In this document: one piece after another, positions 6,050 to 62,700 of the stretch
Layout of the letters: each line of letters starts with the position of its first letter
Position numbering within the stretch: position 1 is the first letter of the stretch
NCBI RefSeq assembly: GCF_006965485.1
Contig: NZ_CP041360.1
Span: 8,594,501-8,658,500 of the forward strand
From: Spirosoma sp. KCTC 42546
GTDB taxonomy: Bacteria > Bacteroidota > Bacteroidia > Cytophagales > Spirosomataceae
DNA length: 64,000 nucleotides
Direction: 5' to 3'
The notes under the pieces: model-generated
Seen by the model: only the letters and a program-made list of their open reading frames with translations
Told to the model about the DNA's origin: nothing
Databases searched by the model: none
Translations under genes and position numbers: made by a program

Positions 6050-6066
6050 TTGGTGGTCATCTAGTA

Positions 6067-6131
6067 GTCATTCGTGGTCATGAGTTGTCATTTATTGTTA
6101 CACTGAATGACAACTCATGACCACGAATGAC
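6067..6131. repeat. Intercistronic hairpin trpB-trpA (GTCATT family)
   Basis: Arms 6067-6092 and 6106-6131 are perfect 26-bp reverse complements around a 13-nt loop. The arms are made of repeated GTCATT/AATGAC words. It fills the trpB-trpA gap and ends 17 bp before the trpA start. It has no T-run, so it is not an obvious terminator. Confidence 0.9.
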
Positions 6132-6141
6132 AATCTAATGG

Positions 6142-7341
6142 CTAAAGGTATTTGGAATACGTACTTAAATCTTTATCGCCACGGCCCGATAGGCACACCA
6201 CGACGACATCACTTGGCTTAAGGTTCATTTTCTCCAGTGCTGCCAGGGCGTGGGCCGATTCCAGCGCTGGAATAATACCTTCGAGCTTACTCAATTGAAA
6301 ACCTGCCTGAAGTGCTTCATCATCCGTAATGGCGTAGAAATCACCCCGGCCCGATTCGAACAAATGAGCGTGCAAAGGGCCAATGCCCGGATAATCCAGA
6401 CCCGCCGAAATGGAATAGGGCTCAATAACCTGGCCATCTTCAGTTTGCATCAGAATGGTCCGGCTTCCGTGTAAAACTCCTGGTTTCCCAAGCGCAGTCG
6501 TAGCGGCCGAATGTCCCGAGGAAACGCCTTGCCCGGCGGCTTCCGCAGCTACTAAACGAACTGATGGTTCATTGAGGTAATGATAGAAAGCACCTGCGGC
6601 ATTGCTACCACCACCAACGCAGGCTACAACATAGTCGGGGTTTGCATTACCGGTTTTCGCAAAAAGCTGCTTCTTAACTTCCTGCGAAATGACCGACTGA
6701 AACCGGGCTACCATATCCGGGTAGGGGTGCGGTCCAACCACCGAGCCAATAATGTAGTGCGTATCGACTGGGTTATTAATCCAGTGCCGCATAGCTTCAT
6801 TGGTGGCATCTTTAAGCGTCTGGCTGCCCGACGTGGCCGGAACGACCGTTGCGCCAAGCATTCGCATCCGGTCTACGTTGGGCTTTTGGCGTTCCATATC
6901 AATGCTGCCCATGTACACAATACATTCCAGTCCCATGAGAGCACAGACCGTAGCGGTGGCCACGCCATGCTGCCCGGCGCCTGTTTCGGCCACAATCCGT
7001 TTTTTGCCAAGTCGCTGTGCGACTAAAATCTGGCCAATTGTATTATTTACTTTATGCGCTCCGGTATGGCAAAGGTCTTCCCGCTTGAGGTAAATTGTTC
7101 CACCAACTTTCTCCGACAGTCGTTTTGCTAGAAACAGAGGAGTAGGCCTGCCGACGTAGTCTTCGAGCAACTGCCAGAATTCAGCCTGAAACGCAGGATC
7201 GGCTATAATGTTGAGGTAGTTCTGTCGTAATTCTTCGACATTTGGGTAGAGCATTTCGGGAATGAACGCTCCACCGAAGTGGCCATAAAAGCCTTTATCT
7301 GATACCTCAAATGAGGTTTGGGGTTCTAGGGTTGTTTGCAT
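6142..7341 (-). CDS. trpB: Tryptophan synthase beta subunit
   Basis: PLP enzyme that condenses indole with serine to make tryptophan. 399 aa, standard TrpB1 length. The PLP lysine is Lys97 in [10 protein letters not shown]. Conserved [12 protein letters not shown], the phosphate-binding [10 protein letters not shown] and the C-terminal SGRGDKDL are all present. The N-terminal [13 protein letters not shown] is typical of the alpha-complexing form. It starts only 5 bp after the stop of a PIN-domain toxin gene that lies between trpF and trpB, which is an unusual neighbour in a trp operon. Confidence 0.97.
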
Positions 7342-7346
7342 GCTAA

Positions 7347-7739
7347 TTAGTGCTTAACCAAGCGTAATCCTAAAGCTGGGAGATGATCGAAATCGTTGTC
7401 TGTAGTATGTAATTCCACATCTAAATACAGCGCTGTAGCCGCTATCCAGATGTCATTTTTGCCCATGTTGCGGGCTGAAGAGTTAAGAGGTGCCGTTTGG
7501 AGCTTTCCTTGACTGAAGGCATCAATTTGTGCATATACAGGAATAACATCAGATTCAATATCAGCAATGGGATATCTATCAATTAGATACCGCATAAAAT
7601 CAATCTTCTGAGCACCCCAGTCTGCTTTTAAGGAAAATGCTTCTAATTCACCTACAACTACGATCGGGATAACCGTTTGAATAATTGGCAGACTACGTTT
7701 GCGAATATGACCAATTAGGAGATTCGTATCATAAATCAT
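7347..7739 (-). CDS. PIN-domain protein, VapC-like toxin
   Basis: 130-aa PIN-domain ribonuclease candidate. The acidic Mg-binding residues are in place: Asp4 in [10 protein letters not shown], Glu31 in VVGELEAF, Asp96 in [12 protein letters not shown], and Asp114/Asp116 in [12 protein letters not shown] toxins of VapBC modules usually cut tRNA or rRNA. The start overlaps the end of the upstream 72-aa ORF by 4 bp (7736-7739), the usual antitoxin-toxin arrangement. The module sits inside the trp operon, between trpF and trpB. The active-site set is complete, so it is probably functional. The target is unknown. Confidence 0.85.
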
Positions 7740-7954
7740 ACGGCACCTCTATCTCCTTCTGTCAATAATTCGTCCATCCGCCGGTTTTCATCTTCTGTAA
7801 ATTCAGGAAATTTCAGTAGGAAAGGTTCATGAACGGCCGTTTCTTCTAAGAAACGTTCAACGCCCCAACGCTTAATGTCACTTGGTTTATAGGTATTTAG
7901 TTGCCCCTTCTTCATTGGGGGAATCTCATCCTCAATATGCTTCGTCGTTTCCAT
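7736..7954 (-). CDS. Putative antitoxin of the PIN toxin
   Basis: Small 72-aa acidic/basic protein immediately upstream of the PIN gene and overlapping it by 4 bp. I do not recognise a standard VapB DNA-binding fold with confidence. The segment YKPSDIKRWGVERFLEE may be helical, and the C-terminal part (EFTEDENRRMDELLTE) is acidic and suited to wrapping a toxin. A second in-frame ATG (MKKGQLNTYKP, residue 14) is an alternative start. The antitoxin role is inferred from gene order and overlap, not from homology. Confidence 0.6.
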   Translation of the reverse strand: METTKHIEDEIPPMKKGQLNTYKPSDIKRWGVERFLEETAVHEPFLLKFPEFTEDENRRMDELLTEGDRGAV

Positions 7955-8010
7955 TAGCGTTGTTGTTTAGGCGTTTAACAAGATTAGCGTTGGAAAAATT
8001 TACTCCAGCA

Positions 8011-8655
8011 TTACACTGCCTCTTCCTCTTCAACTGGCCGCACGCGGTCGATCAACTCTTTCACTTTGGCCACATCTTTTACGCCCGGTGCTAGTTCGAC
8101 CTGACTATTCACATCGACGCCGTAAAGTTTCATCCCTTTTAGGGTTGCCAACAGATCGAGGTTGTTCAGGCCGATGCCACCACTGATGAAAAACGGCTTT
8201 TCATTATCATATCGGCTCAGAATGCTCCAATCGAAGGTGTGTCCGTTGCCGCCGAACTGATCGCCTTTTGCATCGAATAAAAAGAAGTCGCACTGAGCTT
8301 TGTAATTGTTGAGCATCGAAAAATTGAACGACTCATCGACTCGAAAGGCTTTGATAATATTAATACCACGATTGCGCAGACTCCGGCAGTATTCGGGCGT
8401 TTCGTTACCGTGTAACTGGATATACTGAAAGTCGTATTTCTTTACCGACCGCAGAATATAATCCGGACTGGCGTTTACAAATACGCCTACTTTTCGTATT
8501 GACCGGGGTATGGCTTTTACAACTGCTTCGTCTAAGTCTTCACCCACAAAACGAGGGGATTGATCGTAGAAAATAAACCCAATAAAATCGGGATTCAAAG
8601 CAGCAATTTCCTTCAGGTTGTCGGCGTCGCGTAGACCGCACACTTTGATTTTCAT
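8011..8655 (-). CDS. trpF: Phosphoribosylanthranilate isomerase
   Basis: Amadori rearrangement of N-(5-phosphoribosyl)anthranilate to CdRP. 214 aa TIM-barrel. The catalytic Cys6 is in IKVCGLRDADN and the general-acid Asp lies in LYGVDVNSQVE near the C-terminus. Phosphate-binding FISGGIGLNNL is present. Its start overlaps the trpC stop by 4 bp (8652-8655), giving translational coupling. A 56-bp gap follows before the antitoxin gene. Trp pathway assignment is secure. Confidence 0.97.
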   Translation of the reverse strand: MKIKVCGLRDADNLKEIAALNPDFIGFIFYDQSPRFVGEDLDEAVVKAIPRSIRKVGVFVNASPDYILRSVKKYDFQYIQLHGNETPEYCRSLRNRGINIIKAFRVDESFNFSMLNNYKAQCDFFLFDAKGDQFGGNGHTFDWSILSRYDNEKPFFISGGIGLNNLDLLATLKGMKLYGVDVNSQVELAPGVKDVAKVKELIDRVRPVEEEEAV

Positions 8656-9476
8656 GAGTTGTATGAGTTGATAAAGGTGGGCATGCGTGACGTAAAATCG
8701 GTGACTAGCGTTTGTAAGGCCGCGGCCGGATCGGCCGTTTTCATGAACGCTTCGCCAATCAGGAAGCCATCGAAACCCGCCCGGAACAGGGTCAGCATCG
8801 TTTCGGCATCGTGTAGGCCACTTTCGGTAATCTTGGCAAATGTATCCGGAATCCGTTCAACTAACCGAAGGGAGGTATCCACTGACGTTGTAAACGTTTT
8901 AAGATTCCGGTTGTTAACGCCCACCAAATCAATATCATGGTTCAGGCATCGATCCAACTCTTCCTCATCATGAACTTCTAGCAGCACCTGCATACTCAAA
9001 TCGTGGGCCTGAAGGCTAAGCTCCGCGACTTCTTCAGCGGTTAAACAGGCGGCAATGAGCAGGACCAGATCAGCACCCCAGGCCTTGGCTTCGAGTAGTT
9101 GATAGCGGTCGATCACGAAGTCTTTACGCAAAATTGGGGTTCCGGGGTTAGCCAGCCGAGCGGCCATTAAATCGGCAGGGGTTCCGCCAAAGAAAGGCTC
9201 GTCGGTAAGTACCGAGAGAACGGCCGCTCCTGCCCGAACATAGCCCTGTGTGGTTTCGGTTACATCTGCTTTACCGTTGATGATACCTTTAGAGGGCGAT
9301 TTACGTTTGAACTCAGCAATGATACCTGTGGAGCGTAAGTCCTGAATCGCGTCGCGCGCTGAGAGGCATTGACGTTTGAAGTCAGGTAGTTGTTCCAGAT
9401 CGGAGATCGAAGTAGCTTCTTTTCGCTGGGCTACCTCAATTCGTTTTTGTGCAATTATTTCGTCTAGAATCGTCAT
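8652..9476 (-). CDS. trpC: Indole-3-glycerol phosphate synthase
   Basis: Ring closure and decarboxylation of CdRP to indole-3-glycerol phosphate. 274 aa, with the N-terminal family motif ILDEIIAQKRIEVAQRKE. The active-site lysines are in IIAEFKRKSPSKG and PILRKDFVIDRYQ, with VGVNNRNLKTF and ITESGLH further on. It is a stand-alone protein, not fused to TrpF. The start codon lies inside an AATGAC word that continues into the hairpin filling the trpD-trpC gap. It overlaps trpF by 4 bp. Confidence 0.97.
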   Translation of the reverse strand: MTILDEIIAQKRIEVAQRKEATSISDLEQLPDFKRQCLSARDAIQDLRSTGIIAEFKRKSPSKGIINGKADVTETTQGYVRAGAAVLSVLTDEPFFGGTPADLMAARLANPGTPILRKDFVIDRYQLLEAKAWGADLVLLIAACLTAEEVAELSLQAHDLSMQVLLEVHDEEELDRCLNHDIDLVGVNNRNLKTFTTSVDTSLRLVERIPDTFAKITESGLHDAETMLTLFRAGFDGFLIGEAFMKTADPAAALQTLVTDFTSRMPTFINSYNS

Positions 9477-9576
9477 TTTTTATACGTCATTTTTGTCATT
9501 TAGTGATCATTTATTGTCACCTATCGTCTCAGAACAATGGATGACCACTAAATGACAAGTAATGACTATGAATGAC
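9477..9576. repeat. Intercistronic hairpin trpD-trpC (GTCATT family)
   Basis: Core arms 9493-9510 and 9541-9558 pair at 17 of 18 positions, and further GTCATT/AATGAC words lie outside the core on both sides. It fills the trpD-trpC gap and reaches the trpC start codon. It belongs to the same word family as the hairpins before trpA and trpE, but the overall sequence differs. Confidence 0.8.
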
Positions 9577-9583
9577 TCTCTCT

Positions 9584-10570
9584 CTAATTTATCAACTTCT
9601 TAAAACATACCAGTGCCCGCTTACTTTCCAAGGACTCTCGGGCCAAGGCTACAGCTTCTTCGCGGGTAGCCGCCTTATCGGCCGCCAGTAGCGCCATCGC
9701 TGAGTTGGCCAGAACGGCCTGCTTTTGGGCTGAGGTCGCTTCGTCGTTGAGTACGTTCATGAAAATCTGAGCTGATTCATCCAACGTTTGCCCCCCTGCC
9801 AGCGATTTAGCCGTTTGGATATCAAGGCCTAACTGCGCTGGCTCCAACACCTGTTCGGTCTGATTACTAATGACTTTGAATGGTCCCGTTAGTGAAATCT
9901 CATCATAGCCATCCAGCGCATGCAGAATCATAAACCGCTTGTCTGTTTGCTGATAAAGGTACGCATATAATCGCGCCAATTCAAGGTTAAAGACGCCAAC
10001 AAGCTGTTTTCTCGGCTTGGCTGGATTAATCATCGGACCGAGTACATTAAAAAATGTCTTTACACCTAAATCCTTTCGGATTGGGGCTACATTCTTCATT
10101 GCCGGGTGAAACAGCGGGGCATGCAGGAAGCAAATCCCGGCTGTCTCCATCTTGCGCTGCAACTCGCCTACATCGTTGGTAAACTGATACCCTAGCCGTT
10201 CCATCACGGTTGATGACCCAACCAGCGACGAAACGCCGTGGTTACCATGCTTGGCTACACACTGTCCCGCCCCCGCAACGACGAATGATGATAACGTTGA
10301 TATATTAAACGTGTCTTTGCCGTCACCTCCAGTACCACACAAATCCATAGGGTCATAAGCGGCAAGGTCGACGGGCAGGCAGAGTTCCAGCATGGCGTCG
10401 CGGAAACCTTCGAGTTCTTCCAGACGCAGACTGCGCATCATATAAACCGTTAGAAATGACGCAATCTGTGCCGGATTATATTCACCCCGCCCAATACCCA
10501 ACAGAACTTCCCGTGCCTGGTCTTTGGTGAGGTGCTTGTATTCAAAAAGGTGGTTTAAAATAGCTTTCAT
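9584..10570 (-). CDS. trpD: Anthranilate phosphoribosyltransferase
   Basis: Transfers phosphoribose from PRPP to anthranilate. 328 aa. The PRPP/anthranilate-binding signature DLCGTGGDGKDTFNIST is near residue 80, followed by KHGNHGVSSLVGSS and a conserved GPMINPAKPRKQLVGV segment. The N-terminal helical domain (LTKDQAREVLLGIGRGEY) is complete. It is separated by 11 bp from the upstream methyltransferase-like gene and by a 107-bp hairpin-filled gap from trpC. Confidence 0.97.
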   Translation of the reverse strand: MKAILNHLFEYKHLTKDQAREVLLGIGRGEYNPAQIASFLTVYMMRSLRLEELEGFRDAMLELCLPVDLAAYDPMDLCGTGGDGKDTFNISTLSSFVVAGAGQCVAKHGNHGVSSLVGSSTVMERLGYQFTNDVGELQRKMETAGICFLHAPLFHPAMKNVAPIRKDLGVKTFFNVLGPMINPAKPRKQLVGVFNLELARLYAYLYQQTDKRFMILHALDGYDEISLTGPFKVISNQTEQVLEPAQLGLDIQTAKSLAGGQTLDESAQIFMNVLNDEATSAQKQAVLANSAMALLAADKAATREEAVALARESLESKRALVCFKKLIN

Positions 10571-10581
10571 TAGGGTTTATT

Positions 10582-11313
10582 TTATTGTAGAGACGCAATA
10601 CCTTGCGTTTCCTTATCCGGATGGTTCTTTATCCGAATGGTTTTAGCTAGGCGTAGCATTTGATGCGCGCCTTTTTGAAAATGATAATCAATAGGAGCTA
10701 CTTCTACCTGAATCCCTTTTTCTTGACAGGCTGCTAAAACCCTGTTTAGATAAGGTGATGGTTGGCCATTCAAAGCGATTATCGGGAAAATACGAACCTC
10801 GCTGGCTACACGGAGTAGCTCGTGTATCGACTCAAGATGAAACGCTGCCGACAGTTGTTCCGAATACAGAAATAGAAAATGCGAACACAGCGCCAAATCA
10901 AATGACTGATCTGGAAATGGCAATTTGGGTAATGCGGTGGCCTGATAGCGGCCCTGTTGTCGGCCAGCCTCGTAATCATCCAGAAATTGATTCATTGCCT
11001 TCATGCGTTCGTTGCCTACTTCATCGGGATCACGAAATGTTGTCCAGTTATACTGATCTGCGTTTTTGTGCAGTTGGCCGATGACAATGTCGTACGTCTC
11101 CCGAATACGTTCGGTTAATTCATGAGCCGAAAAAGTGTAAATCGGATCGATAGATACTACCGAATTGCCAACTGCTTTCATTTCGACGTTGAAACTGGCA
11201 GGGCCATCACCGACGCCCAATATTTGTTTGGTCAGGTCGTCATCTGTTAAGCGAAACATCTGTCGATACTCGGCCAACGTTCGACCCCAGGGAACAACTT
11301 TATTCAGTTTCAT
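10582..11313 (-). CDS. SAM-dependent methyltransferase-like protein inserted in the trp operon
   Basis: 243-aa protein with a class I methyltransferase layout. A motif I-like glycine loop ILGVGDGPASFNVEM starts near residue 31. An acidic end of strand 2 follows in VVSIDPIYTF, then a motif-IV-like PFPDQSFDLALCSHFLFLY near residue 155. The catalytic substrate is unknown and I do not recognise a named family. It overlaps the end of trpG by 4 bp (11310-11313) and lies 11 bp before trpD, so it must be translated from the trp mRNA. That placement hints at a link to tryptophan or anthranilate metabolism, but it could equally be a passenger gene. Confidence 0.75.
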   Translation of the reverse strand: MKLNKVVPWGRTLAEYRQMFRLTDDDLTKQILGVGDGPASFNVEMKAVGNSVVSIDPIYTFSAHELTERIRETYDIVIGQLHKNADQYNWTTFRDPDEVGNERMKAMNQFLDDYEAGRQQGRYQATALPKLPFPDQSFDLALCSHFLFLYSEQLSAAFHLESIHELLRVASEVRIFPIIALNGQPSPYLNRVLAACQEKGIQVEVAPIDYHFQKGAHQMLRLAKTIRIKNHPDKETQGIASLQ

Positions 11314-11876
11314 GCCTTCAACCAGTTCTCAATCATCTTGACACCGTTTTCTGTCAGGACCGATTCTGGGTGGAATTGCAGCCCTTTCACATCGAAGCGC
11401 GTATGCGACAGGCCCATGACGCGCCCCTGCTCATCGACGGCTGTAATCCGTAAATCAGCGGGCATCGAATCGGGCACGACTGTCCAGGAGTGATAGCGCC
11501 CAACTGTTAGCTCGTCGGGAATATCAGCGAATAGTCGTTCGGAGTGGTCTGTTACGGTGGCTTTATGGGCCACGCCATGCAGGACATCGCCAAGGTTTTC
11601 GAGCGTGGCACCGTATACTTCGCCAATGCCCTGATGGCCAAGGCAAATGCCCAGAATGCTTTTGGTTGGGCCATACTCTCGAACCAAATCCTGCATAATA
11701 CCCGCTTCGGACGGAATGCCCGGGCCGGGTGAGAGCATAATTTTATCGTACTGCCCAACGGCTTCCAGAGCAATCTTGTTATTCCGGATCACATCGGGTT
11801 TCAGCCCTAACTCTCGTAGAATATAGACGAGATTGTAGGTGAATGAATCGTAGTTATCTAAGACTAAAAGTTTCAT
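11310..11876 (-). CDS. trpG: Anthranilate synthase component II (glutamine amidotransferase)
   Basis: Supplies ammonia from glutamine to TrpE. 188 aa, class I amidotransferase. The nucleophile Cys78 lies in ILGICLGHQGIGE, and the His-Glu pair in LQFHPESVLTENG. The oxyanion segment MLSPGPGIPSEAG is present. Some PabA proteins look alike and can serve both folate and tryptophan synthesis; position directly after trpE supports trpG here. A 95-bp gap containing a purine-rich imperfect hairpin separates it from trpE. Confidence 0.95.
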   Translation of the reverse strand: MKLLVLDNYDSFTYNLVYILRELGLKPDVIRNNKIALEAVGQYDKIMLSPGPGIPSEAGIMQDLVREYGPTKSILGICLGHQGIGEVYGATLENLGDVLHGVAHKATVTDHSERLFADIPDELTVGRYHSWTVVPDSMPADLRITAVDEQGRVMGLSHTRFDVKGLQFHPESVLTENGVKMIENWLKA

Positions 11877-11971
11877 AAAAAAGGGAGGAGTGGGAGGAAG
11901 GAGGAAAGGGAGAAGGAATTAAAAGTATCTGTATGTAACAATCCTTCATCCCTCTCGTCCCGTTTCTCCTT
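11877..11971. repeat. Intercistronic imperfect hairpin trpE-trpG (GGAGGAAGG family)
   Basis: The left part is made of GGAGGA and GGAGAAGG words, and the right part of their complements (CCTTCATCC, CTCCTTTT). Pairing is clearly imperfect, so this looks like a decayed copy of the kind seen intact at 35174-35256. It abuts the trpG start codon. Confidence 0.65.
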
Positions 11972-13411: not shown

Positions 13412-13503
13412 TTGATAGTCATTAAGTGGTCATTTATCGTCATTGGTTGTCATTGCGCTTGTAATTAGTGACCACGAATGATCAACTAATGACTAGAAAT
13501 GAC
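13409..13503. repeat. Imperfect hairpin at the trpE start (GTCATT family)
   Basis: Five GTCATT-type words on the left face AATGAC-type words on the right (13460-13502). The outermost pair includes the trpE start codon, because CAT at 13409-13411 is part of GTCATT. It lies between the attenuator terminator and trpE, so it is present only in read-through mRNA. Confidence 0.7.
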
Positions 13504-13538
13504 AAAAAATAAGGCTCACCGGGATGACGGTGAGCCTT
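13504..13538 (-). terminator. trp attenuator terminator
   Basis: On the minus strand a 10-bp perfect stem AAGGCTCACC / GGTGAGCCTT (13529-13538 and 13511-13520) closes an 8-nt loop, followed directly by a run of six T. It lies between the leader peptide and trpE, as expected for a transcription attenuator. Confidence 0.9.
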
Positions 13539-13566
13539 AGGAAATTTGTTGAAAAACAACAATAGC

Positions 13567-13631: not shown

Positions 13632-13693
13632 GAGTGTTAAACTCGTTGTATCAGATTGAACGCTATTTCTGCGTCACACCCCGTATTAGGCCA

Positions 13694-13725: not shown

Positions 13726-13743
13726 GGCTTTATCAATTTTTTT

Positions 13744-14302: not shown

Positions 14303-14457
14303 GAGTTGTGCTGGTTTATGTTCGTTTGGTTCGACAGTACAAACATAGAGACCATCAATCGACACCTCCAACTGAAAGGGATGAACAGCACGGTTATGGG
14401 ACAAATTGCAATCCTGGAGGCTTTTCGTAAGGTTATAGGGACGTTTGGGATGCCTGA

Positions 14458-16379: not shown

Positions 16380-16480
16380 TGGTTTACGATTTACGGTATT
16401 CGGTTTAGGGTTTTTCGAGAGTTCACGCGTTCGTGCATGCGTCAGCCCCCCGAATACCGTGAACCGAATACGGTAAACCA
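16380..16480. repeat. Imperfect inverted repeat between recQ and msrB
   Basis: TGGTTTAC and ACGGTATTCGG words on the left (16379-16420) pair with CCGAATACCGT and GTAAACCA on the right (16450-16480). It ends about 8 bp from the recQ start, like the intercistronic hairpins elsewhere, although here the flanking genes are divergent. Confidence 0.75.
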
Positions 16481-31917: not shown

Positions 31918-31926
31918 GGTAAGTTA

Positions 31927-32020
31927 TTAGTTAAAAGTGAAGTAGGTGTAGTAAGTGGCTGACGCGAAAAGCAATACAATCGCATCAGCCACTTACTACA
32001 CCTACTTCACTTTTAACTAA
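31927..32020. terminator. Perfect 36-bp hairpin between convergent genes
   Basis: Arms 31927-31962 and 31985-32020 are perfect reverse complements around a 22-nt loop. It separates the stops of the Rrf2 gene and the DUF4301 gene, so it could serve as a two-way terminator, although it has no clear T-run and is much longer than a usual terminator. Confidence 0.7.
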
Positions 32021-32026
32021 TCGACT

Positions 32027-35165: not shown

Positions 35166-35173
35166 GAGAAGGA

Positions 35174-35256
35174 GGAGTAAGGGGAGGAGCGGGAGGAAGG
35201 AGGAAAGGGAATAGCTACAAATCCCTCCTCCTTCCTCCCGCTCCTCCCCTTACTCC
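35174..35256. repeat. Intercistronic hairpin def-amidohydrolase (GGAGGAAGG family)
   Basis: Arms 35174-35204 and 35226-35256 are perfect 31-bp reverse complements around a 21-nt loop, built of GGAGGA-type words. It fills the gap between def and the amidohydrolase and ends 8 bp before the latter's start. Confidence 0.92.
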
Positions 35257-35258
35257 TT

Positions 35259-35837: not shown

Positions 35838-35911
35838 AATGAATAATGGATAATGTAAGATGGATAATGACATAGCGAACATTGTGCATTATCCATCTTA
35901 CATTATTCATT
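35838..35911. repeat. Intercistronic hairpin ruvX-def (GATAATG family)
   Basis: The right arm 35887-35911 pairs with 35838-35869, except for a 7-8-nt extra GGATAATG-type word in the left arm. Arms are made of repeated ATAATG units. It ends 6 bp before the def start and reaches to the ruvX stop. Confidence 0.85.
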
Positions 35912-36323
35912 ATCGTTTACTTTCCATGTACGACTGAAGAATAATGGCTGCGCTTACTTTATCAATATTTCCTTTCACACGTCGGTCTTTTTTCGTGCTT
36001 CCGCCTGCAATCATAGCCTGTAGAGCCATTACAGACGTAAACCGTTCATCATGCCAATAAACCGGGATATCGGGCAAAGCGTTCTGTAAATGCGTTACAA
36101 ACTTCCTGACACGGGGGGTGTTATCCGTATCCAGGCCATCCAAGCCCTTAGGTAATCCAACAATAAAGGCCTCGACGGGCTCCCGCAAGACGTAGGCTTT
36201 CAGAAACTTTAAGACTTCATGCGAGGGGACTGTCTCCAGCGCCGACGCGATGAGTTGCAAAGGGTCCGTTACGGCGATGCCCGTACGTTTCATGCCGTAG
36301 TCGATTGCTAAGAGTCGTGCCAT
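35910..36323 (-). CDS. ruvX: Holliday junction resolvase-like protein
   Basis: 137-aa YqgF/RuvX RNase H-fold protein, from the ATG at 36323 (MARLLAIDYGMKRTGIAVTDP); the longer ORF to 36500 overlaps the upstream gene and is not supported. Acidic active-site residues are seen in LLAIDYG, in VYWHDERFTSVMA and in NIDKVSAAIILQ. The family functions in 16S rRNA 5'-end maturation or junction resolution. It follows the MobA-like gene with an 88-bp gap. Confidence 0.92.
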   Translation of the reverse strand: MARLLAIDYGMKRTGIAVTDPLQLIASALETVPSHEVLKFLKAYVLREPVEAFIVGLPKGLDGLDTDNTPRVRKFVTHLQNALPDIPVYWHDERFTSVMALQAMIAGGSTKKDRRVKGNIDKVSAAIILQSYMESKR

Positions 36324-38225: not shown

Positions 38226-38234
38226 GACTATTGG

Positions 38235-38310
38235 GTTTGAAATTTGAGGTTCGTAGTTTGAAGTTCTATGTGCGTCAGCAACTTCAAACTACGAACCTCA
38301 AACTTCAAAC
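38235..38310. repeat. Intercistronic hairpin iorB-like-XdhC (TTTGAAGTTTGAGG family)
   Basis: Arms 38243-38265 and 38280-38302 are perfect 23-bp reverse complements around a 14-nt loop, extended by GTTTGAA and TTCAAAC on the outside. It fills the gap and ends 9 bp before the XdhC start. Confidence 0.9.
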
Positions 38311-38316
38311 TAAAAA

Positions 38317-42480: not shown

Positions 42481-42490
42481 TTGGGTGGAC

Positions 42491-42609
42491 TCTGGCGCGG
42501 GTATTTACCCGTGTCTTTTAATGAAGTCAGCATTTGCTGATGCATGAATAGCCAGTGGGCCAGCGAATGCTGGCTATAGTAAAAAGCACGGGTAAATGCC
42601 CGCGCCAGA
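42491..42609. repeat. Branched inverted repeat between the NTF2-like and GNAT genes
   Basis: Outer arms 42491-42520 and 42581-42609 pair with few mismatches (TCTGGCGCGGG.ATTTACCCGTG against its complement). Inside is a second hairpin, ATAGCCAG...CTGGCTAT. The GNAT start codon at 42596 lies in the right arm. Confidence 0.85.
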
Positions 42610-46572: not shown

Positions 46573-46586
46573 GTAAGTTTCTCAAA

Positions 46587-46639
46587 AATAAAAAGCCTCC
46601 TGCCTGCTGTTAAAAGCAATAGGCAGGAGGCTTTTTATT
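46587..46639. terminator. Bidirectional terminator
   Basis: Perfect 19-bp arms 46587-46605 and 46621-46639 with A-rich and T-rich ends. It serves the nagB fusion from the left and the membrane protein from the right. Confidence 0.88.
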
Positions 46640-46649
46640 TACCCACGCT

Positions 46650-53711: not shown

Positions 53712-55196
53712 CTAGTTAAGGTTATCTACTAGATTAACACTGACGCGGACTTTCGTTCCCCTTTTAGGCTTCGTTGTAATGGTTAACTCACCGTTGAGCA
53801 ATCGGGTTCGAGTACGCATATTATCGAGACCGTTGATTGTTGGTAATACCTTTTCATCGGCCGTATACGCTTTCATGACAAACCCTTTTCCATCATCTTC
53901 TACGGATAAAAGCAACTTATGCATATCCTGCTGCAAGGTAATTTTTATAGTTTTTGCTTCGGCATATTTCACGGCATTGTGCAAGGCTTCCTGCGCAATA
54001 CGATATAAACCAATCTCCATGGATGGGCTGAGCCGTTTAGCATCCTTCGAGCCGGTAAAGACAACAGGAATACCTACTGATCGGGTTGTTTGTTCAGCCA
54101 GGAGTTGCAGGGTAGGGCCTAAACCGAAGTCGCTTAACGTTGAAGGCATCAGGTTATAGGAAACCTGCCGGGTTGTTTGAATCGTGTCGGCAATCAGATC
54201 GCATAGTTCCGCAAAACGAAGTCGCTGTTTTTCATCCGTAAATGACGTGGCCTTCAGCTTTTCTGCGTGTAATTTCAGGCCGGTAAGCATCTGACCGATG
54301 CCATCGTGGAGTTCACGGGCAAAGCGCCGACGCTCTTCTTCCTGACCTTCCAGCAATGCCGCCGATCGAACGGTATCTTCAGCCAGTTGTAGCTGATATT
54401 TTTCCTCGGTAGTCCGTAATAACTCACGTTGAGTATCAACCAGTTTCCGATTAGAAGCGGCCAGATTTTGATTCGTAGCTTCTAACTCCCTGTTAGTTAG
54501 CTCCATGTGGTTATTCGCTAGTTGCAGCGCCTTCTCCGACCTGTCCAGTCTACGGATAATATGACGGGTGTAATTGACCACCGGTCTAAAAACAAATAGG
54601 CCCTCAACCAATAGAGTCAACAGCGTGGCAATAGTAAGCAACCACTCGATTCGTTCAAGCCGTTTTACCTGATCAAAGCTTTCGGTATCAAACTGAAAGA
54701 CGATTGCATTCATTTGCTGTATGAATGGGAACTCATCGCGTAAAATGATTTGAAGTGCCGCCTTTTTCTCATCAAGTGTACTGCTAGGATCGTTGATGCG
54801 GCTAAAGTGGTTAAAAAGTGACTGAAATATGGGGGCGACGCGCGTAAACATGCTATCGAGTTGACTGCTCTTTCGAACCGTATAGTCCTTTTCCATATGC
54901 AGCATGCCGTTCCGCAACTGAATATGACTCTGACTCCAGGACTGGAGTAGCGAATCGAATGAAACGGTATCGGCGGCAGTAAGCCCCTCAATCCGAAGCA
55001 TAGCTAACTTTGTCAGGCGCTGACTAAGCATCCGTTGCCGCCCCGCCACATTCACTACCCGGCTGTCATCGTAATGAGTGCTGATGGTATGCTTGATAAA
55101 CAGGAGCCCGCTCAAAGATAACACGGCAATAACCGTGAGGGCTATCATATAAAACCGCGTTAGTCGGCTGGCTACCTGTTGATCGAGTTGAGTCAT
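53712..55196 (-). CDS. NarX-like sensor histidine kinase, probable nitrate/nitrite sensor
   Basis: 494 aa. TM1 is near residues 16-34 and TM2 near 184-206; the periplasmic segment between them holds VVNVAGRQRMLSQRLTKLAM (48-67), the P-box-like motif of NarX/PilJ-type sensors, where an Arg binds nitrate. A coiled-coil linker is rich in NxELxxxN. The HisKA_3 H-box is RRFARELHDGIGQ (His297), followed by an HATPase domain with VEDDGKGF. Cotranscription with nitrite reductase makes nitrate or nitrite sensing a strong inference. The start ATGACT is preceded by a second copy of its own first 26 bases. Confidence 0.92.
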   Translation of the reverse strand: MTQLDQQVASRLTRFYMIALTVIAVLSLSGLLFIKHTISTHYDDSRVVNVAGRQRMLSQRLTKLAMLRIEGLTAADTVSFDSLLQSWSQSHIQLRNGMLHMEKDYTVRKSSQLDSMFTRVAPIFQSLFNHFSRINDPSSTLDEKKAALQIILRDEFPFIQQMNAIVFQFDTESFDQVKRLERIEWLLTIATLLTLLVEGLFVFRPVVNYTRHIIRRLDRSEKALQLANNHMELTNRELEATNQNLAASNRKLVDTQRELLRTTEEKYQLQLAEDTVRSAALLEGQEEERRRFARELHDGIGQMLTGLKLHAEKLKATSFTDEKQRLRFAELCDLIADTIQTTRQVSYNLMPSTLSDFGLGPTLQLLAEQTTRSVGIPVVFTGSKDAKRLSPSMEIGLYRIAQEALHNAVKYAEAKTIKITLQQDMHKLLLSVEDDGKGFVMKAYTADEKVLPTINGLDNMRTRTRLLNGELTITTKPKRGTKVRVSVNLVDNLN

Positions 55197-55234
55197 TTTG
55201 TTGCTACCTGTTGATCGAGTTGAGTCATTTTGTT
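55171..55234 (-). repeat. 32-bp tandem duplication over the kinase start codon
   Basis: Two perfect 32-bp units (55171-55202 and 55203-55234) each contain an ATGACTCAACTC start. The upstream copy encodes MTQLDQQVATK and stops at TGA, which overlaps the kinase ATG (ATGA). This makes an 11-codon upstream ORF that is probably translationally coupled. Confidence 0.85.
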
Positions 55235-55252
55235 GTGGTATTCGGTATTTGG

Positions 55253-55606
55253 TTATACCCCAATATACACCATTCCATCTGCTATTTTGACCGGAAAGGT
55301 GTCAATCTCGTATCCGTCATCATTCAGGCATTGGCCCGTTTTGAGCGAAAACGTCTTCTTGTGAAAAGGGCAAGCCACTTTAGGTTCTTCGCCCTGGCTG
55401 CCGATCATACCCCGCGACAGGGCCATCTGCTGGCGATGCGGGCATTCGTTCGCGGTTGCATACCACTCGCCCCGGCGTGCAAAATTGAATATGGCAATCT
55501 GCCGACCGCCGAGCAGCACACAGGCACCTCCATCTTCAGGAATATGTTCAGTTTTACAGGCAGGATGCCAAGTAATTTCGTTTTTATGTATTGTTAGTGT
55601 TTCCAT
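55253..55606 (-). CDS. nirD: Nitrite reductase small subunit, Rieske-type
   Basis: 117-aa partner of NirB. Rieske 2Fe-2S motif ANECPHRQQMAL (C-x-H) and VACPFHKKTFSL (C-x-x-H). It is a short NirD, common in Gram-negative assimilatory systems. The gene follows nirB by 114 bp containing a decayed GTCATT-type inverted repeat. It is 56 bp before the kinase gene on the same strand. Confidence 0.94.
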   Translation of the reverse strand: METLTIHKNEITWHPACKTEHIPEDGGACVLLGGRQIAIFNFARRGEWYATANECPHRQQMALSRGMIGSQGEEPKVACPFHKKTFSLKTGQCLNDDGYEIDTFPVKIADGMVYIGV

Positions 55607-55609
55607 TGT

Positions 55610-55690
55610 CTTTGATAGATTGTCATTCAGAAGTCATTAAGGGTCATTCGGTTGGTATTAATGGTTGATGACTACCGATTGGCAATCTAT
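55610..55690. repeat. Decayed inverted repeat nirB-nirD (GTCATT family)
   Basis: GATTGTCATTCAGAAGTCAT words pair with ATGACTACCGATTGGCAATC on the right at roughly three of four positions. The GTCATT word is shared with the trp operon hairpins. Confidence 0.6.
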
Positions 55691-55720
55691 GACCATCAGT
55701 GCCCACCGAATAACTTTCCT

Positions 55721-58270: not shown

Positions 58271-58331
58271 AGTTGATTGTAACTATAACATTGTGAAAAC
58301 CCCGTTTTATTATTGTATTTATCTAATAAAA

Positions 58332-58358
58332 TAGCCTTTTTCCTCCCAAAATAGGCTA
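58332..58358. promoter_or_regulatory. TAGCCT-N15-AGGCTA dyad at the nirB promoter
   Basis: Perfect 6-bp arms separated by 15 bp, just downstream of the nirB -7 element. Either an operator for the nir regulator or a leader hairpin. Low specificity because the arms are short. Confidence 0.35.
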
Positions 58359-58360
58359 GT

Positions 58361-58368
58361 CAAAAGTA
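58361..58368 (-). promoter_or_regulatory. nirB promoter -7 element
   Basis: On the minus strand TACTTTTG is an exact TAnnTTTG match, 90 bp before the nirB start. I found no good TTG at the -33 position, so a regulator may help. Confidence 0.5.
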
Positions 58369-58443
58369 AGAGGTGTTTTTGGTAAATCCTAATGAATAAT
58401 TTTGTTATAGGTTGAATAAGAAACATATTTTTTTGAAAAAGGC

Positions 58444-58473
58444 TTGTTTTTAAGAATTTCATCTCTACTTTTG
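58444..58473 (+). promoter_or_regulatory. cobA promoter
   Basis: TTG (58444-58446), 19-nt spacer, TACTTTTG (58466-58473): a full match to the Bacteroidetes promoter form. Predicted start is near 58480, giving a 70-nt leader. Confidence 0.65.
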
Positions 58474-58487
58474 AACCATAAATATTC

Positions 58488-58527
58488 AATAGTGGTAAAT
58501 ATCTATTAATAGTACAATACCACTATT
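58488..58527. promoter_or_regulatory. AATAGTGGTA ... TACCACTATT dyad in the cobA leader
   Basis: Perfect 10-bp arms 58488-58497 and 58518-58527 with a 20-nt AT-rich spacer, 8 bp downstream of the predicted start and 23 bp before the ATG. Either an operator for the NarL-like regulator or an RNA hairpin controlling cobA. Confidence 0.5.
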
Positions 58528-58550
58528 TAACGGGTAAACGGTAAAGTCAG

Positions 58551-59309
58551 ATGAAGCCAATGCTAACACTCGTGGGGGCGGGTCCCGGCGACGGCGAATT
58601 GATCACCTTAAAAGGGATCAGGGCGCTCCGACAAGCAGACGTTGTTTTATACGACGATCTTGCGAACCATACTTTACTAGAGTTTGCGCCTGAACAGGCT
58701 CTGAAAATCTACGTGGGTAAACGGGCTGGTAAAGCGTCGTTTACGCAGGAAGAAATAAATGAGCTGATTGTCCGGTTTGCGCAGGAACATGGCCACGTCG
58801 TTCGGCTTAAAGGGGGAGACCCTTATGTATTTGGGCGCGGATTTGAAGAGTACGAGTACGCCAGGCAGTTTGGTATTCGGTGTGAAGTGGTACCGGGGGT
58901 GTCAAGTAGTATAGCCGTTCCCGCTTCGCAGGGTATACCTGTCACAAGCCGGGGGGTTAGCGAGAGCTTTTGGGTAATTACCGGTACTACACGTAAGGGC
59001 GAGCTTTCCGATGATCTGCATCTGGCAGTTCAGTCGAAAGCAACCGTTATTGTGTTGATGGGAATGAGTAAAATAAATGAGATATGCACGCTATTTTGTG
59101 AGGCCGGACGCGGCCACCTGCCTATGGCAATCGTGCAGAATGGTACGCGCGCTGATGAGCAGTGCGTACTAGGTCAGGTCTGGAATATACCGCAGTTGGC
59201 AGCAGAGCAAGGCGTGGGGGCGCCCGCTGTGCTGATCATCGGTGAAGTTGTTGCGCTACACCCGTCTTATCTGGCCGAATGTATGCGAAACTTCTCTATG
59301 GCCTACTGA
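58551..59309 (+). CDS. cobA: Uroporphyrinogen-III C-methyltransferase
   Basis: SAM-dependent methylation of uroporphyrinogen III to precorrin-2, the first step to siroheme for NirB. 252 aa, single-domain form. The family signature is LVGAGPGDGELITLKGIRAL near residue 7, with YVGKRAGK, RLKGGDPYVFGRG and PGVSSSIAVPASQGIP. The dehydrogenase and ferrochelatase steps are not encoded here. First gene of the rightward nitrate set. Confidence 0.95.
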   Translation: MKPMLTLVGAGPGDGELITLKGIRALRQADVVLYDDLANHTLLEFAPEQALKIYVGKRAGKASFTQEEINELIVRFAQEHGHVVRLKGGDPYVFGRGFEEYEYARQFGIRCEVVPGVSSSIAVPASQGIPVTSRGVSESFWVITGTTRKGELSDDLHLAVQSKATVIVLMGMSKINEICTLFCEAGRGHLPMAIVQNGTRADEQCVLGQVWNIPQLAAEQGVGAPAVLIIGEVVALHPSYLAECMRNFSMAY

Positions 59310-59325
59310 GAAAGTTTAACGTTTG

Positions 59326-59425
59326 GCGTTCGAGGTTTGAAGTTGTTGTTCTCTATTATGTTTGTTTCTACTAGGGAATCAGTTAGTAGTGAACCTTAAA
59401 CTTCGGACTCTAAACGTCAAACTAA
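59326..59425. repeat. Imperfect inverted repeat after cobA (TTTGAAGTTT family)
   Basis: GTTTGGCGTTCGAGGTTTGAAGTT on the left against a complementary stretch on the right with several mismatches. It uses the same TTTGAAGTTT words as the hairpin before XdhC. Confidence 0.6.
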
Positions 59426-59430
59426 ACAAG

Positions 59431-59470
59431 AAAAAAGCCGATCCGGTGTGGGGGCACCTTTGGATCGGCT
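59431..59470 (-). terminator. Leftward intrinsic terminator
   Basis: AGCCGATCC (59436-59444) pairs with GGATCGGCT (59462-59470), with an inner GGTG/CACC pair. The T-run is on the minus strand only, so it acts on leftward RNA, although both flanking genes point right. Confidence 0.7.
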
Positions 59471-59502
59471 AAACGGGATTTGTCTATGCGAAAAACACAA
59501 AC
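59431..59502 (-). ncRNA. Candidate small RNA on the minus strand, about 72 nt
   Basis: An intrinsic terminator pointing leftward ends at 59431-59436 with a run of T. A minus-strand TTTG-N20-TTTCTTTG (59535-59538 and 59507-59514) resembles the Bacteroidetes promoter with one mismatch. No protein-coding frame is convincing. The RNA would lie between cobA and the porin gene. Confidence 0.45.
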
Positions 59503-59705
59503 GCTTCAAAGAAAATGAAAAATAACAGGTAAAGCAAATTAGCGCATTCATGCTATCGGCCTGGCAATAGCCCGCCGGTTAGCCGTCTTCTCTTCTTCCA
59601 GGTCACGCTTACGGTCTGTTCTACAACGCCTTACCCCAATTCGGGTAGGTCCACTCACTGTTGTTTCTACCATTCATTTTCTTCTTAATCGGATTGCCTA
59701 TTCGT

Positions 59706-61250
59706 ATGAATTATATAATCAAACGGGTGTCATTAGCCGCTGTTATTTTGCTACTAACCCAATCAACACTATTCGCTCAGTTCTCGCTCATTGGCCAGGT
59801 TCGAACTCGGACCGAACTACGTAACGGGCTTGGTAACCTCGCTCCAAAAGATGCGCCTGCTGCCTTTTTTACCTCACAACGTACCCGGCTTACGTTCGGC
59901 TACAAGTGGGATCGTGTACAGTTTCAAACGTCTATTCAGGATGTTCGGGTATGGGGACAGGATGCGTCTACCATCAATAATGCCGACGGGAATCGCCTGA
60001 TGGTACACGAAGCCTGGGCCGAAGTAACGCTGGCTAATGGTGCCGATACGACCATCAAATTTAAACCCATTCAGAACCTTTCCCTTAAAATAGGTCGTCA
60101 GGAGTTGGTTTACGACGACGTACGTTTATTAGGTAACCTCGACTGGCTTCAGCAGGGACGCCGGTTCGATGCCGCCTTGCTGAAAGGTCAGCACAAGGGC
60201 TGGGCACTTGACCTCGGCGTGGGCTTCAACCAAAATACCGACGCGTTTGGGATCGTAGGTGATAATTACACGGCTGGGAATGTGCCTGCTTCGGCTTTGT
60301 CGAACAAAAACGTAACTCTGGCAATTCCAGCGGGATTTATACCAACATCGGGTAAGGGGGGGGCACCTGTATTGGCCACGCCATTGAGTACCAACGGGCA
60401 GAATCAGCAATTCAAGTCGTTTCAGATGGCTTACCTGACACGCAAATTCAACCAGACAAAATTCTCGGCACTGTTCTTTAAAGATGATTTTCAGAAGTAC
60501 CGGTCCGATTCACTTGGGAATGCTACGGCGGGTTACGTATATGGGAGACGTTATGATGTTACCGGTACAAATTCACGCCTGACGTATGGGGCCATGTTGA
60601 CAGGTTTGTTGGGAAACAACTCATCAAAATTTGGTAATGTACAATGGCAGGCATTTGCGTATGGCCAAAGTGGCAAAGACCGTGATGGCTTAAGCATCAA
60701 AAACGCGTACCACTACGGTGGGAATGTGATGTTCCAGAAAGGACTGCTAAGTGTTGGTCCCGGTTACGAAGTGCTATCAGGCAACGATGCCACAACAATT
60801 CAGTCGGGAGAAACCAGCCGATTTGATCCACTGTATGGAACGCCACACCGGCATTGGGGCTATATGGACTATTTCTATGTGGGAACGGGCTCACCATCGG
60901 GTGGGTTGAAAGATGCGTTTCTGAAGTTCAAATACACGGGAACACGCCTGACCACTACGTTTGATGTTCACTACTTCGCGCTGGCAGCTCCAACCTACAA
61001 TAAAATGCCTGATGCCCCCGCCGGTACGCTCCTGTCGACTAAACTGGGTATGGAATACGACTTCGTGGCGAATTATACGCTCAACAAGTTTACGAGCCTG
61101 GAATTTGGCTATTCGGTCATGAATGGGACCAACAGTCTGGAGTATGCAAAGCAGGGCACCATGGACGAAAAGAGTAAGATCGGCACCTGGGCTTATCTGA
61201 TGATTAACATCCGCCCTGATTTCTTTGCCGCGAAAGCAGCCACCAAATAG
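59706..61250 (+). CDS. Alginate-export-like outer membrane porin, probably for nitrate
   Basis: 514 aa from the ATG at 59706, with signal peptide ending STLFAQ; the ORF could extend to 59661. Beta-barrel protein of the alginate_exp type: SLIGQVRTRTELRNGLG, FTSQRTRLTFGYKWDRVQFQ, DVRVWGQDASTINNADGN. The last strands end near YLMINIRPDFFA. In Bacteroidota such porins often accompany nitrate assimilation genes. Position between cobA and the nitrate transporter suggests nitrate uptake across the outer membrane; this is inference. Confidence 0.83.
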   Translation: MNYIIKRVSLAAVILLLTQSTLFAQFSLIGQVRTRTELRNGLGNLAPKDAPAAFFTSQRTRLTFGYKWDRVQFQTSIQDVRVWGQDASTINNADGNRLMVHEAWAEVTLANGADTTIKFKPIQNLSLKIGRQELVYDDVRLLGNLDWLQQGRRFDAALLKGQHKGWALDLGVGFNQNTDAFGIVGDNYTAGNVPASALSNKNVTLAIPAGFIPTSGKGGAPVLATPLSTNGQNQQFKSFQMAYLTRKFNQTKFSALFFKDDFQKYRSDSLGNATAGYVYGRRYDVTGTNSRLTYGAMLTGLLGNNSSKFGNVQWQAFAYGQSGKDRDGLSIKNAYHYGGNVMFQKGLLSVGPGYEVLSGNDATTIQSGETSRFDPLYGTPHRHWGYMDYFYVGTGSPSGGLKDAFLKFKYTGTRLTTTFDVHYFALAAPTYNKMPDAPAGTLLSTKLGMEYDFVANYTLNKFTSLEFGYSVMNGTNSLEYAKQGTMDEKSKIGTWAYLMINIRPDFFAAKAATK

Positions 61251-61293
61251 ACTCATTGAACAACTATTTCCTCGTTTTCTAAACACAACTAGC

Positions 61294-62595
61294 ATGAATC
61301 TCACATCAAATAAACCGCTCGATTCGCTAAACATATTCAACGTAAAAGGTGTGCAGATGCGGACCTTTCATATTACGTGGTTAACCTTTTTTGTCTGCTT
61401 TTTCGGCTGGTTCGGATTGGCTCCACTGATGCCCGCCATCCGCGCCGATTTAGGGCTAACCAAACCACAGGTGGGTAATACCATCATTGCGGCTGTATCT
61501 GCTACAATCCTGGCCCGCCTGGTCATTGGTCGGCTGTGCGATACCTGGGGGCCGCGCAAAACCTATACAGCCTTACTGGTACTGGGTTCATTACCAGTTA
61601 TGTTCGTTGGTCTGGCGCATGATTACACCACATTTCTGTTGTTCCGACTGGCGATTGGTGTCATTGGCGCATCGTTCGTGATTACGCAGTTCCATACATC
61701 AATCATGTTTGCGCCGAAAATCAAAGGCACAGCCAACGCCGTAGCGGGTGGCTGGGGGAACCTGGGCGGAGGCATCACGCAACTGGCTATGCCACTCATC
61801 ATGGCCGCTATCGTTGGCTTCGGCTATACAAAGCCCGAAGCCTGGCGGCTGGCAATGATTTTTCCGGGCGTGCTAATGCTCATTATGGCATTCGTCTATT
61901 ATCGCTTTACCAAAGACACACCTGCGGGCAACTATGCAGAGATCAAACGGTCGGTGGCAACGGAGGAAAAGGTAAGTTTCTGGACAGCCTGCGCCGACAT
62001 CCGCGTCTGGGCGCTGGCCCTGGCGTATGCCTGCTGCTTCGGCATGGAAATCACCTTTGATGGAGTAGCCGCGCTTTATTTCTTTGATAATTTCAAACTG
62101 GCCGAAACAGAAGCCGGTTTCTGGGCCATGCTCTTTGGCGGCATGAATATTTTTGCCCGTGCTCTTGGCGGAATTTTGGCTGATAAAGTCGGCAATAAAT
62201 ACGGGATGCGCGGCAAAGGCATCCTGCTGGCAGGCATGCTGGTACTGGAAGGAGCTGGAATCATGCTGTTTGCGCAGGCGGGTAGTTTGCCGCTGGCTAT
62301 CATCTCCATGATTACGTTCGCCCTGTTCTTGAAAATGTCGAACGGCAGCACCTACGCCATTGTGCCTTTTGTGAACCCTAAAGCAGTTGGTGTTATTTCT
62401 GGTGTAGTGGGTGCGGGTGGGAACCTCGGTGGAATGTTGATGGCCTTTCTGTTCAAGTCGCAGTCCATCAGCTACGGCCAGGCCTTCCTATACATCGGCT
62501 GTATTGTAGTTGCTGCCGGATTGCTCTTATTCCTGGTGAATTTCAGTAAAGAAGTTGTTCTGGAACAGGCAGAAGCGGAATTGCAGTTGAATTAA
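61294..62595 (+). CDS. NNP-family nitrate/nitrite transporter
   Basis: 433-aa major facilitator with twelve helices, from the ATG at 61294; upstream codons overlap the porin gene. NNP signature motifs are both present: ANAVAGGWGNLGGGITQLAMP in TM5 and ISGVVGAGGNLGGMLMAFLF in TM11. The conserved Arg in TILARLVIGRLCDTWGPR may bind nitrate. Imports nitrate through the inner membrane. It precedes the nitrate reductase gene. Confidence 0.94.
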   Translation: MNLTSNKPLDSLNIFNVKGVQMRTFHITWLTFFVCFFGWFGLAPLMPAIRADLGLTKPQVGNTIIAAVSATILARLVIGRLCDTWGPRKTYTALLVLGSLPVMFVGLAHDYTTFLLFRLAIGVIGASFVITQFHTSIMFAPKIKGTANAVAGGWGNLGGGITQLAMPLIMAAIVGFGYTKPEAWRLAMIFPGVLMLIMAFVYYRFTKDTPAGNYAEIKRSVATEEKVSFWTACADIRVWALALAYACCFGMEITFDGVAALYFFDNFKLAETEAGFWAMLFGGMNIFARALGGILADKVGNKYGMRGKGILLAGMLVLEGAGIMLFAQAGSLPLAIISMITFALFLKMSNGSTYAIVPFVNPKAVGVISGVVGAGGNLGGMLMAFLFKSQSISYGQAFLYIGCIVVAAGLLLFLVNFSKEVVLEQAEAELQLN

Positions 62596-62700
62596 GGGAG
62601 AAAGGAGGAAAGGGAAGAGAGGTAAGAAAGGAATGAATTTATTTCCCTCTTTCCCCTCGTCCCTTTCCTCCCTCTCCTCTTTTCCTCTCCCTTTAAAATC
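62596..62700. repeat. Intercistronic purine/pyrimidine hairpin transporter-nitrate reductase (GGAGGAAGG family)
   Basis: GGAGAAAGGAGGAAAGGG words on the left and CCCTTTCCTCCCTCTCC words on the right form an imperfect inverted repeat. It fills the 105-bp gap and ends directly before the nitrate reductase start. Confidence 0.75.

Follow-up and report, generated by a model that had tools for sequence, protein, structure and literature searches.

Hairpins behind stop codons in Spirosoma tend to recur at gene junctions while their sequences differ

Long inverted repeats, here called hairpins, occupy many gaps between the genes of Spirosoma sp. KCTC 42546. They lie near stop codons, and whether a gap has one depends largely on the junction and is kept across the genus, unlike the sequence; two families of short words within them are associated with the neighbouring codons. 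The window from which this analysis started is a 64-kb stretch of the 8.66-Mb single-contig genome. With a probability of about 0.45, these hairpins are palindromes of gene 3' ends like the repetitive extragenic palindromes (REPs) of other bacteria, in part members of dispersed families and in part hairpins made of short words and rewritten in place, which would serve as protective barriers. From the comparisons below we infer both this function and a rewriting by template switching.

Abundance and position of the hairpins

The survey of this genome covered 81 pieces (1.664 Mb, 1260 called genes), and a survey of relatives covered 60 pieces (1.2 Mb) from 20 other genomes of the genus. Counted at score 16, the own genome has 290 repeats in intergenic DNA vs 12 in coding DNA, that is, 1252 vs 8.4 per Mb. 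Dinucleotide-shuffled gaps of at least 40 bp (three shuffles per gap, from a first own-genome sample of 864 kb) gave zero repeats at this score, which rules out random low-complexity matches as their origin. These inverted repeats are genuine and occur throughout the genome far more often than chance allows. A sequence-only reading of the window had suspected such a genome-wide architecture, and both surveys bear it out.

Genes were called by a simple hexamer script that misses small genes (e.g. nirD) and places some starts inside hairpins (def), and with gap classes thus approximate, hairpins are found in 78 of 126 convergent, 165 of 534 co-directional, and 18 of 169 divergent own gaps of at least 60 bp (relatives: 33/61, 116/469, and 6/99). 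This order is the one predicted by the two, one, and no gene ends per gap of the three classes. Within co-directional gaps of at least 130 bp, the hairpin is closer to the stop than to the start in 82 of 103 own cases and 48 of 57 in relatives; 53 and 36 of them lie within 20 nt of the stop, and 7 and 5 within 20 nt of the start. Among all co-directional hairpins, 91 of 169 (own) and 80 of 121 (relatives) lie within 10 nt of the stop, rising to 105 and 91 within 15 nt, and 29 and 31 lie within 10 nt of the start. The arm begins in or upstream of the stop codon itself in 48 of 217 (first own sample and relatives). The centre of own co-directional hairpins is a median of 50 nt past the stop when they are long and 54 nt when they are short. 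The downstream start codon, which the sequence-only reading took as the defining anchor, has therefore lost that place: long gaps are stop-biased, the richest class is that of convergent gaps, where there is no start codon at all, and the poorest is that of divergent gaps. A short gap is filled whole by its hairpin, so that the next ATG is touched too. A bias between leading and lagging strands was also considered and rejected (68/268 vs 64/266, p 0.76).

Recurrence at junctions and replacement of sequence

Across 21 genomes of the genus, hairpin presence at co-directional junctions has a dispersion of 3.07 vs a null mean of 1.06 (0 of 2000 permutations; 27 junctions, 71 of 215 gaps). The dispersion is not significant for convergent (3 junctions, 159/2000) or divergent gaps (7 junctions, 432/2000). 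Among 1824 orthologous gap comparisons, in which species pairs are non-independent and the trp region of G004/G005 was entered twice, 313 have a hairpin in both members; by our alignment criteria, 71 of these align and 242 do not. Within the close clade (the own genome, G032, G003, and G008), gap identity is 0.56 when both gaps carry hairpins (n 28), 0.55 when one does, and 0.72 when neither does (n 38; both vs none, p 0.00025), with shuffled baselines of 0.48 (both) and 0.51 (none). In all other pairs it is 0.51 with hairpins in both vs 0.57 with none (p 3.5e-7).

Single junctions illustrate the replacement. At ruvX-def, each of the 8 species compared carries a hairpin, and its words vary: four species have AATAATG after TAA, two have TGAAGA after TAG, one has GAATGATGA after TGA, and one has CAGGATT. 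At trpE-trpG, 8 of 21 species pass score 14, with a make that may be GGAG, AATAATG, GCGGAC, GCGGGT, or other. Hairpins occur at trpB-trpA in 9 of 18 species and at trpD-trpC in 6 of 14.

The spacing of trpD and trpC (8652-10570 and orthologues) differs with hairpin presence: the genes overlap by 4 bp in G018, G010, G006, and G027, are 1 bp apart in G015, and elsewhere are separated by gaps of 48-116 bp, several with hairpins. The co-directional gap 4513-4598 is hairpin-free in 21 of 21 species at a similar length (82-98 bp), and possibly holds a promoter or leader.

Hairpins of the window

The hairpins of the window are listed with coordinates, strand, and description (z, folding as RNA against shuffles).

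4110..4162, minus: terminator-like hairpin, 23-bp perfect; 3' arm ends T-rich; z -9.2
6067..6131, minus: trpB-trpA hairpin in gap 6050-6141; GTCATT/AATGAC decamer words; trpA starts ATGAC; -46.5 kcal/mol, z -9.8
9493..9558, minus: trpD-trpC hairpin in gap 9477-9583; GTCATT/AATGAC words; trpC starts ATGAC; z -5.9
11879..11965, minus: trpE-trpG hairpin in gap 11877-11971; purine GGAG words; starts near the trpE TAA stop; weak ungapped score; z -3.2
13429..13503, minus: hairpin immediately upstream of trpE; GTCATT/AATGAC words; trpE starts ATGAC; about 316 bp from the upstream called stop; z -3.9
16390..16477, no strand: divergent-gap hairpin, a minority class; TTTACGG words; holds the GCGTCAGC motif
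31926..32021, no strand: convergent-gap hairpin in gap 31918-32026; 42-bp arms; hairpin in 8 of 8 species compared; -70.4 kcal/mol, z -17
35173..35257, minus: def to CN_hydrolase hairpin in gap 35166-35258; 32-bp perfect arms; GGAG words; -78.2 kcal/mol, z -10.8
35843..35913, minus: ruvX-def hairpin; AATAATG words; extends to the ruvX TAA stop; z -8.6
38235..38310, minus: MoCoBD gene to XdhC hairpin in gap 38226-38316; GTTTGA heptamer words; z -11.3
42491..42609, plus: SnoaL-like to GNAT hairpin; 49-bp arms, 84%; overlaps the called GNAT start; z -4.4
46586..46640, no strand: bidirectional-terminator-like convergent hairpin; 20-bp perfect; A-rich and T-rich ends; z -7.6
55615..55690, minus: weak nirB-nirD hairpin in gap 55607-55720; GTCATT words; nirD starts ATGGA and has a Rieske_2 Pfam match
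62604..62671, plus: MFS transporter to molybdopterin oxidoreductase (nasA) hairpin in gap 62596-62700; GGAG words; z -3.0

All nine gaps singled out beforehand contain an inverted repeat, by the repeat search and by a separate scan, and the gene names given to them agree with Pfam. The tight trpC-trpF junction (4-bp overlap) has none, as had been noticed. The dimensions first reported need correction: ungapped repeats measure 65-119 bp rather than 78-115 bp, with several below 78, and an end 0-17 bp before the next ATG does not describe 62604-62671, which stops 29 bp short of the called ATG, or 42491-42609, which enters the called GNAT start. The good match between arms holds at def to CN_hydrolase (32 bp perfect), and not all arms are near perfect. 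Twelve window hairpins folded as RNA have z of -3.0 to -17, and eight of the nine in the named gaps (nirB-nirD left out) -3.0 to -11.3, with zero shuffles as good in either set. Rfam gave 0 matches at gathering score in the window, and both a known RNA family and a tRNA were rejected as the identity of the repeats.

The called def start, 35882, falls within the ruvX-def hairpin, and the starts of its orthologues lie further down. At L095, an inverted repeat with 73-bp arms and a 2-nt loop is orthologous to the hairpin of the window's 42481-42595 gap. A perfect 32-bp tandem duplication lies at 55171-55235, between nirD and the next gene, and overlaps the called start of the latter.

Words, neighbouring codons, and dispersed families

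The set used for periodicity and anatomy comprises 321 long hairpins (212 own, 109 from relatives). Word families had been seen in the window, and they recur here: by a strict measure (65% self-identity), 86 of the 321 have periodic arms, with periods of 7 (46 hairpins), 8 (20), 9 (15), 10 (4), and 11 (1). With shuffled arms as the yardstick, periodicity is found in 46 of 110 long own hairpins that have a close relative and in 17 of 66 that have none. The 5' arm tends to be purine-rich, with ratios of hairpins above 0.6 to those below 0.4 purine, in which members of repeated families enter more than once, of 65:4 (co-directional), 23:2 (convergent), and 6:0 (divergent) in the own genome and 35:7, 10:1, and 0:0 in relatives. 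Short hairpins share this lean. Long hairpins make up 1.1% of the bases and contain 22 of 67 occurrences of the GCTGACGC motif, a 30-fold enrichment.

Two word families are associated with adjacent codons. AATAATG words follow TAA in 13 of 51 own cases vs 1 of 32 for other stops (relatives, 7/38 vs 0/26), and among hairpins within 30 nt of a start, ATGAC words precede ATGAC starts in 3 of 10 own cases vs 0 of 65 for other starts (relatives, 3/17 vs 0/44). Start 5-mers are found in the 3' arm 5 times vs 1.2 in the own genome and 10 vs 4.0 in relatives (about 105/5000 each), and show no such excess in the 5' arm. Both trpA and trpC start ATGAC even where species have other words, suggesting that the start preceded the words there. 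Beyond Spirosoma, the exact AATAATG hairpin pattern occurs in 37 stretches of a species-genome collection: 14 in Spirosoma, 3 in Rudanella, 2 in Arsenicibacter, and 18 in others, whose hosts include Pontibacter, Bacteroidales, Anaerolineae, Gemmatimonadetes, Planctomycetes, and Clostridiales. In 2 of 3 loci from Rudanella and 2 of 2 from Arsenicibacter, the hairpin has a called gene end no more than 20 nt away, and at several other loci it has none so close; these calls are rough, the gene model having been trained on the window's genome. By eye only, the idea that the words are all-frame stop signals was discarded, given that GGAG and CACAGAG words contain no stop.

When 276 own hairpins were compared within a sample covering 19% of the genome, 121 had a close relative elsewhere, 37 an intermediate one, and 118 none. 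One fixed family, similar to REPINs (paired REPs) and of the form TTTGTCAT..GACG..ATCTT, is represented in the own genome by 24 half-sites in forward and 23 in reverse orientation, mostly paired. By eye, each arm of this family, TTTGTCAT(TCC/GCT/CCC)GACG..(GGA/AGC/GGG)ATCTT (about 24 sites), is itself a small covarying hairpin. The genome has five loci with Y1_Tnp matches. Long hairpins near the tyrosine transposase genes of loci L134 (5451516) and L135 (1717053) match gap hairpins elsewhere in the genome.

Pairing and changes in the arms

On the sense strand, mismatches in long co-directional arms are G-U in 184 cases and A-C in 199, vs 21 and 8 in short arms (difference p 0.012); the divergent hairpins of relatives have 6 G-U and 0 A-C, from 6 hairpins, too few to weigh. 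Between species, requiring a hairpin in both, which favours paired changes by ascertainment, gives 148 paired Watson-Crick changes (72 transversions) and single changes of 38 G-U, 39 A-C, and 27 transversions. Without the requirement of pairing in the second species, long arms have 177 double changes (104 Watson-Crick, of which 51 are transversions, and 73 other) vs 73 expected if independent, with singles of 155 G-U, 137 A-C, and 353 transversions; short arms have 129 double changes vs 51 expected, with singles of 97, 65, and 233. The lack of a G-U excess over A-C in long arms argues that pairing is probably kept at the DNA level, and we read DNA-level maintenance as more likely there than RNA selection. 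In a 37-bp perfect convergent hairpin of G004/G005, the 5-nt loop looks inverted between both species; it is too short for a shuffle test.

Interpretation

In the preferred reading, the hairpins are palindromic 3'-end elements near stop codons whose presence is set largely by the junction, and one junction holds hairpins of different words or families in different species. For word hairpins, the most likely rewriter would be quasipalindrome template switching at the DNA level, in which the replication machinery copies one arm from the other, to which slippage of 7-10-nt words would add; some words were perhaps seeded by the adjacent stop or start codon. Once transcribed, the hairpin would probably act by analogy with an E. 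coli REP, as a message-end barrier whose sequence is unimportant, whether by protection from exonucleases or by slowing ribosomes or polymerase.

A stricter version of rewriting is a tentative alternative: the hairpin slot after stops would be inherited as structure, a sequence-free element whose letters would be made anew on the spot again and again, with the adjacent stop or start codon as their source and slippage and template switching as the means. Several results weigh against the preferred reading. Many hairpins are not sequence-free, since 121 of the 276 have a close relative; this share, together with the transposase-linked matches described below, weakens the case for the preferred reading and for its stricter version and strengthens that for mobile REPs. 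The codon link was noticed first and then tested on overlapping data. Only AATAATG of four patterns tracked one stop in both sets, and no such link was seen for TGAAGA, GGAGG, or GTGAATGA. Of the six stop counts in a general stop-codon permutation, five were null and the sixth, the reverse-complement count in relatives, reached 16/5000; a far-from-stop control in the own genome was also low (211/5000). Hairpins more than 30 nt from a start are of no use as a control, with ATGAC words in 1 of 154; nirD, with an ATGGA start and a GTCATT-word hairpin, breaks the ATGAC rule, and the start-proximal trpE hairpin (13429-13503) is an exception to the stop rule. The dispersion test ignores kinship and may give too high a value owing to close-sister inheritance and gap type. 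The two closest pairs show much the same identity for hairpin gaps as for other gaps (difference not significant; n 2 and 5), and hairpin-free gaps may be conserved through promoters. Adjacent double changes are not enriched in long arms (5 vs a mean of 3.7), and the multi-base footprint of template switching was not seen there. In favour of template switching, one G001/G022 loop, from the orthologue of own gap 14303-14457, has to be reverse-complemented before it matches its counterpart (20/5000 shuffles as good, a nominal value, uncorrected for its being picked from 235 loop pairs); in a second inverted loop, G001/G015, 366/5000 shuffles are as good, and the totals of 6 same and 4 inverted loops are not above random loop pairs (47 and 28 of 1874). 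Finally, a very stable hairpin may tolerate single mismatches, and the absent G-U bias is then compatible with an RNA role.

That the hairpins are ordinary intrinsic terminators, many bidirectional, which have grown long, is rather doubtful. They are stop-proximal and richest in convergent gaps, are centred about 50 nt past the stop as the short terminator-like hairpins are, and share the purine-first arm with them; a survey of 118,019 genomes reports the peak of bacterial inverted repeats 50-80 bp past stops (PMC13155455). However, only 21 of 219 long co-directional hairpins (10 of 133 own, 11 of 86 in relatives) have a T-tract directly behind the 3' arm, in line with the scarcity of T-runs first noticed in the window, and the hairpins stand within trp and other operons, whose genes do run on beyond them as had been supposed. 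The arms far exceed the needed length, and long arms lack the G-U preference of short ones.

Spread as REP/REPIN-like mobile palindromes by Y1 tyrosine transposases seems unlikely. The fixed family and the 121 hairpins with close relatives speak for it, as does the placement of REPs in print, which is reported to be the same (PMC3733652); flanks of the Y1 loci L134, L135, and L133 match 6, 5, and 1 gap hairpins of the own sample, respectively, and those of L131 and L132 none. These matches account for only 12 of 276 hairpins, though, and 118 have no close relative. The REP foot tags are rare: GTAG stands at the 5' foot in 12 of 242 own and 8 of 141 relatives' hairpins and at the 3' foot in 14 and 6, and CGTC in 3 and 0 (5' foot) and 0 and 5 (3' foot). 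No clear case of a clean insertion into an empty site was found among the orthologous gaps inspected by eye.

RNA structures selected in the transcript and kept by compensatory mutation are an equally improbable account. Recurrence at junctions, strong folds, and the excess of double changes in long arms (177 vs 73) fit it, but the single changes of long arms show no G-U over A-C excess (155 to 137), and transversions make up about half of the paired changes. Elements of translation control linked to the start codon, the emphasis of the sequence-only reading, are very improbable, for although short gaps put the hairpin near the ATG, ATGAC words match ATGAC starts, and the trpE hairpin is start-proximal, hairpin positions in long, convergent, and divergent gaps largely refute them.

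The preferred reading, that of REP-like 3'-end palindromes partly rewritten in place, describes a natural system in which a hairpin stays at its site while its sequence changes. Comparison of strains makes RNA selection with compensatory mutation testable against DNA copying between arms, and the system warns that covariation alone is no proof of a functional RNA. It is also relevant to the way in which this group spaces the genes of its operons. A sequence-free element, if true, would explain the same intergenic words in unrelated bacteria without common descent.

Comparison with known systems

Among the matches listed in a search of open-licence literature (titles and abstract openings), no published account of such hairpins in Spirosoma appeared. 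Intrinsic (Rho-independent) terminators are similar in having a hairpin about 50 nt after the stop with a purine-leaning 5' arm; they differ in that the T-tract is mostly absent here, the arms reach at least 24 bp, and the hairpins lie inside operons. The TAACTGA heptamer repeats of Beggiatoaceae, cyanobacteria, and some Bacteroidetes are likewise short iterated intergenic words of distant phyla, but are reported to be nearly all direct, of one word, and mostly just upstream of starts in the main genome studied (PMC4679880). Hairpins made by template switching share the concerted arm changes, and loop inversion is named as their strongest sign; the published account describes them for RNA genes and not as a genome-wide intergenic element (PMC8794818).

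The REPs, with bacterial interspersed mosaic elements (BIMEs) and REPINs, are a further close comparison. Unlike them, most hairpins here lack the GTAG/CGTC tag, 118 of 276 have no close relative within the sample, degenerate tandem words of 7-11 nt make up between about a quarter and a third of the long arms, and the hairpin family is replaced at orthologous sites. Like them, part of the hairpins form dispersed families, some with matches beside Y1 transposase loci. REPs are described as intergenic palindromes by gene 3' ends; they occupy gaps of the co-directional and convergent kinds and at times provide the stop codon (PMC3733652), a placement that the present hairpins match. For E. coli, ribosome stalling is reported at REPs no more than 15 nt from the stop (PMC12306157), a distance that most co-directional hairpins of Spirosoma also keep. 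By this analogy, the hairpins would work like REPs, and a part of them may be REP-like families.

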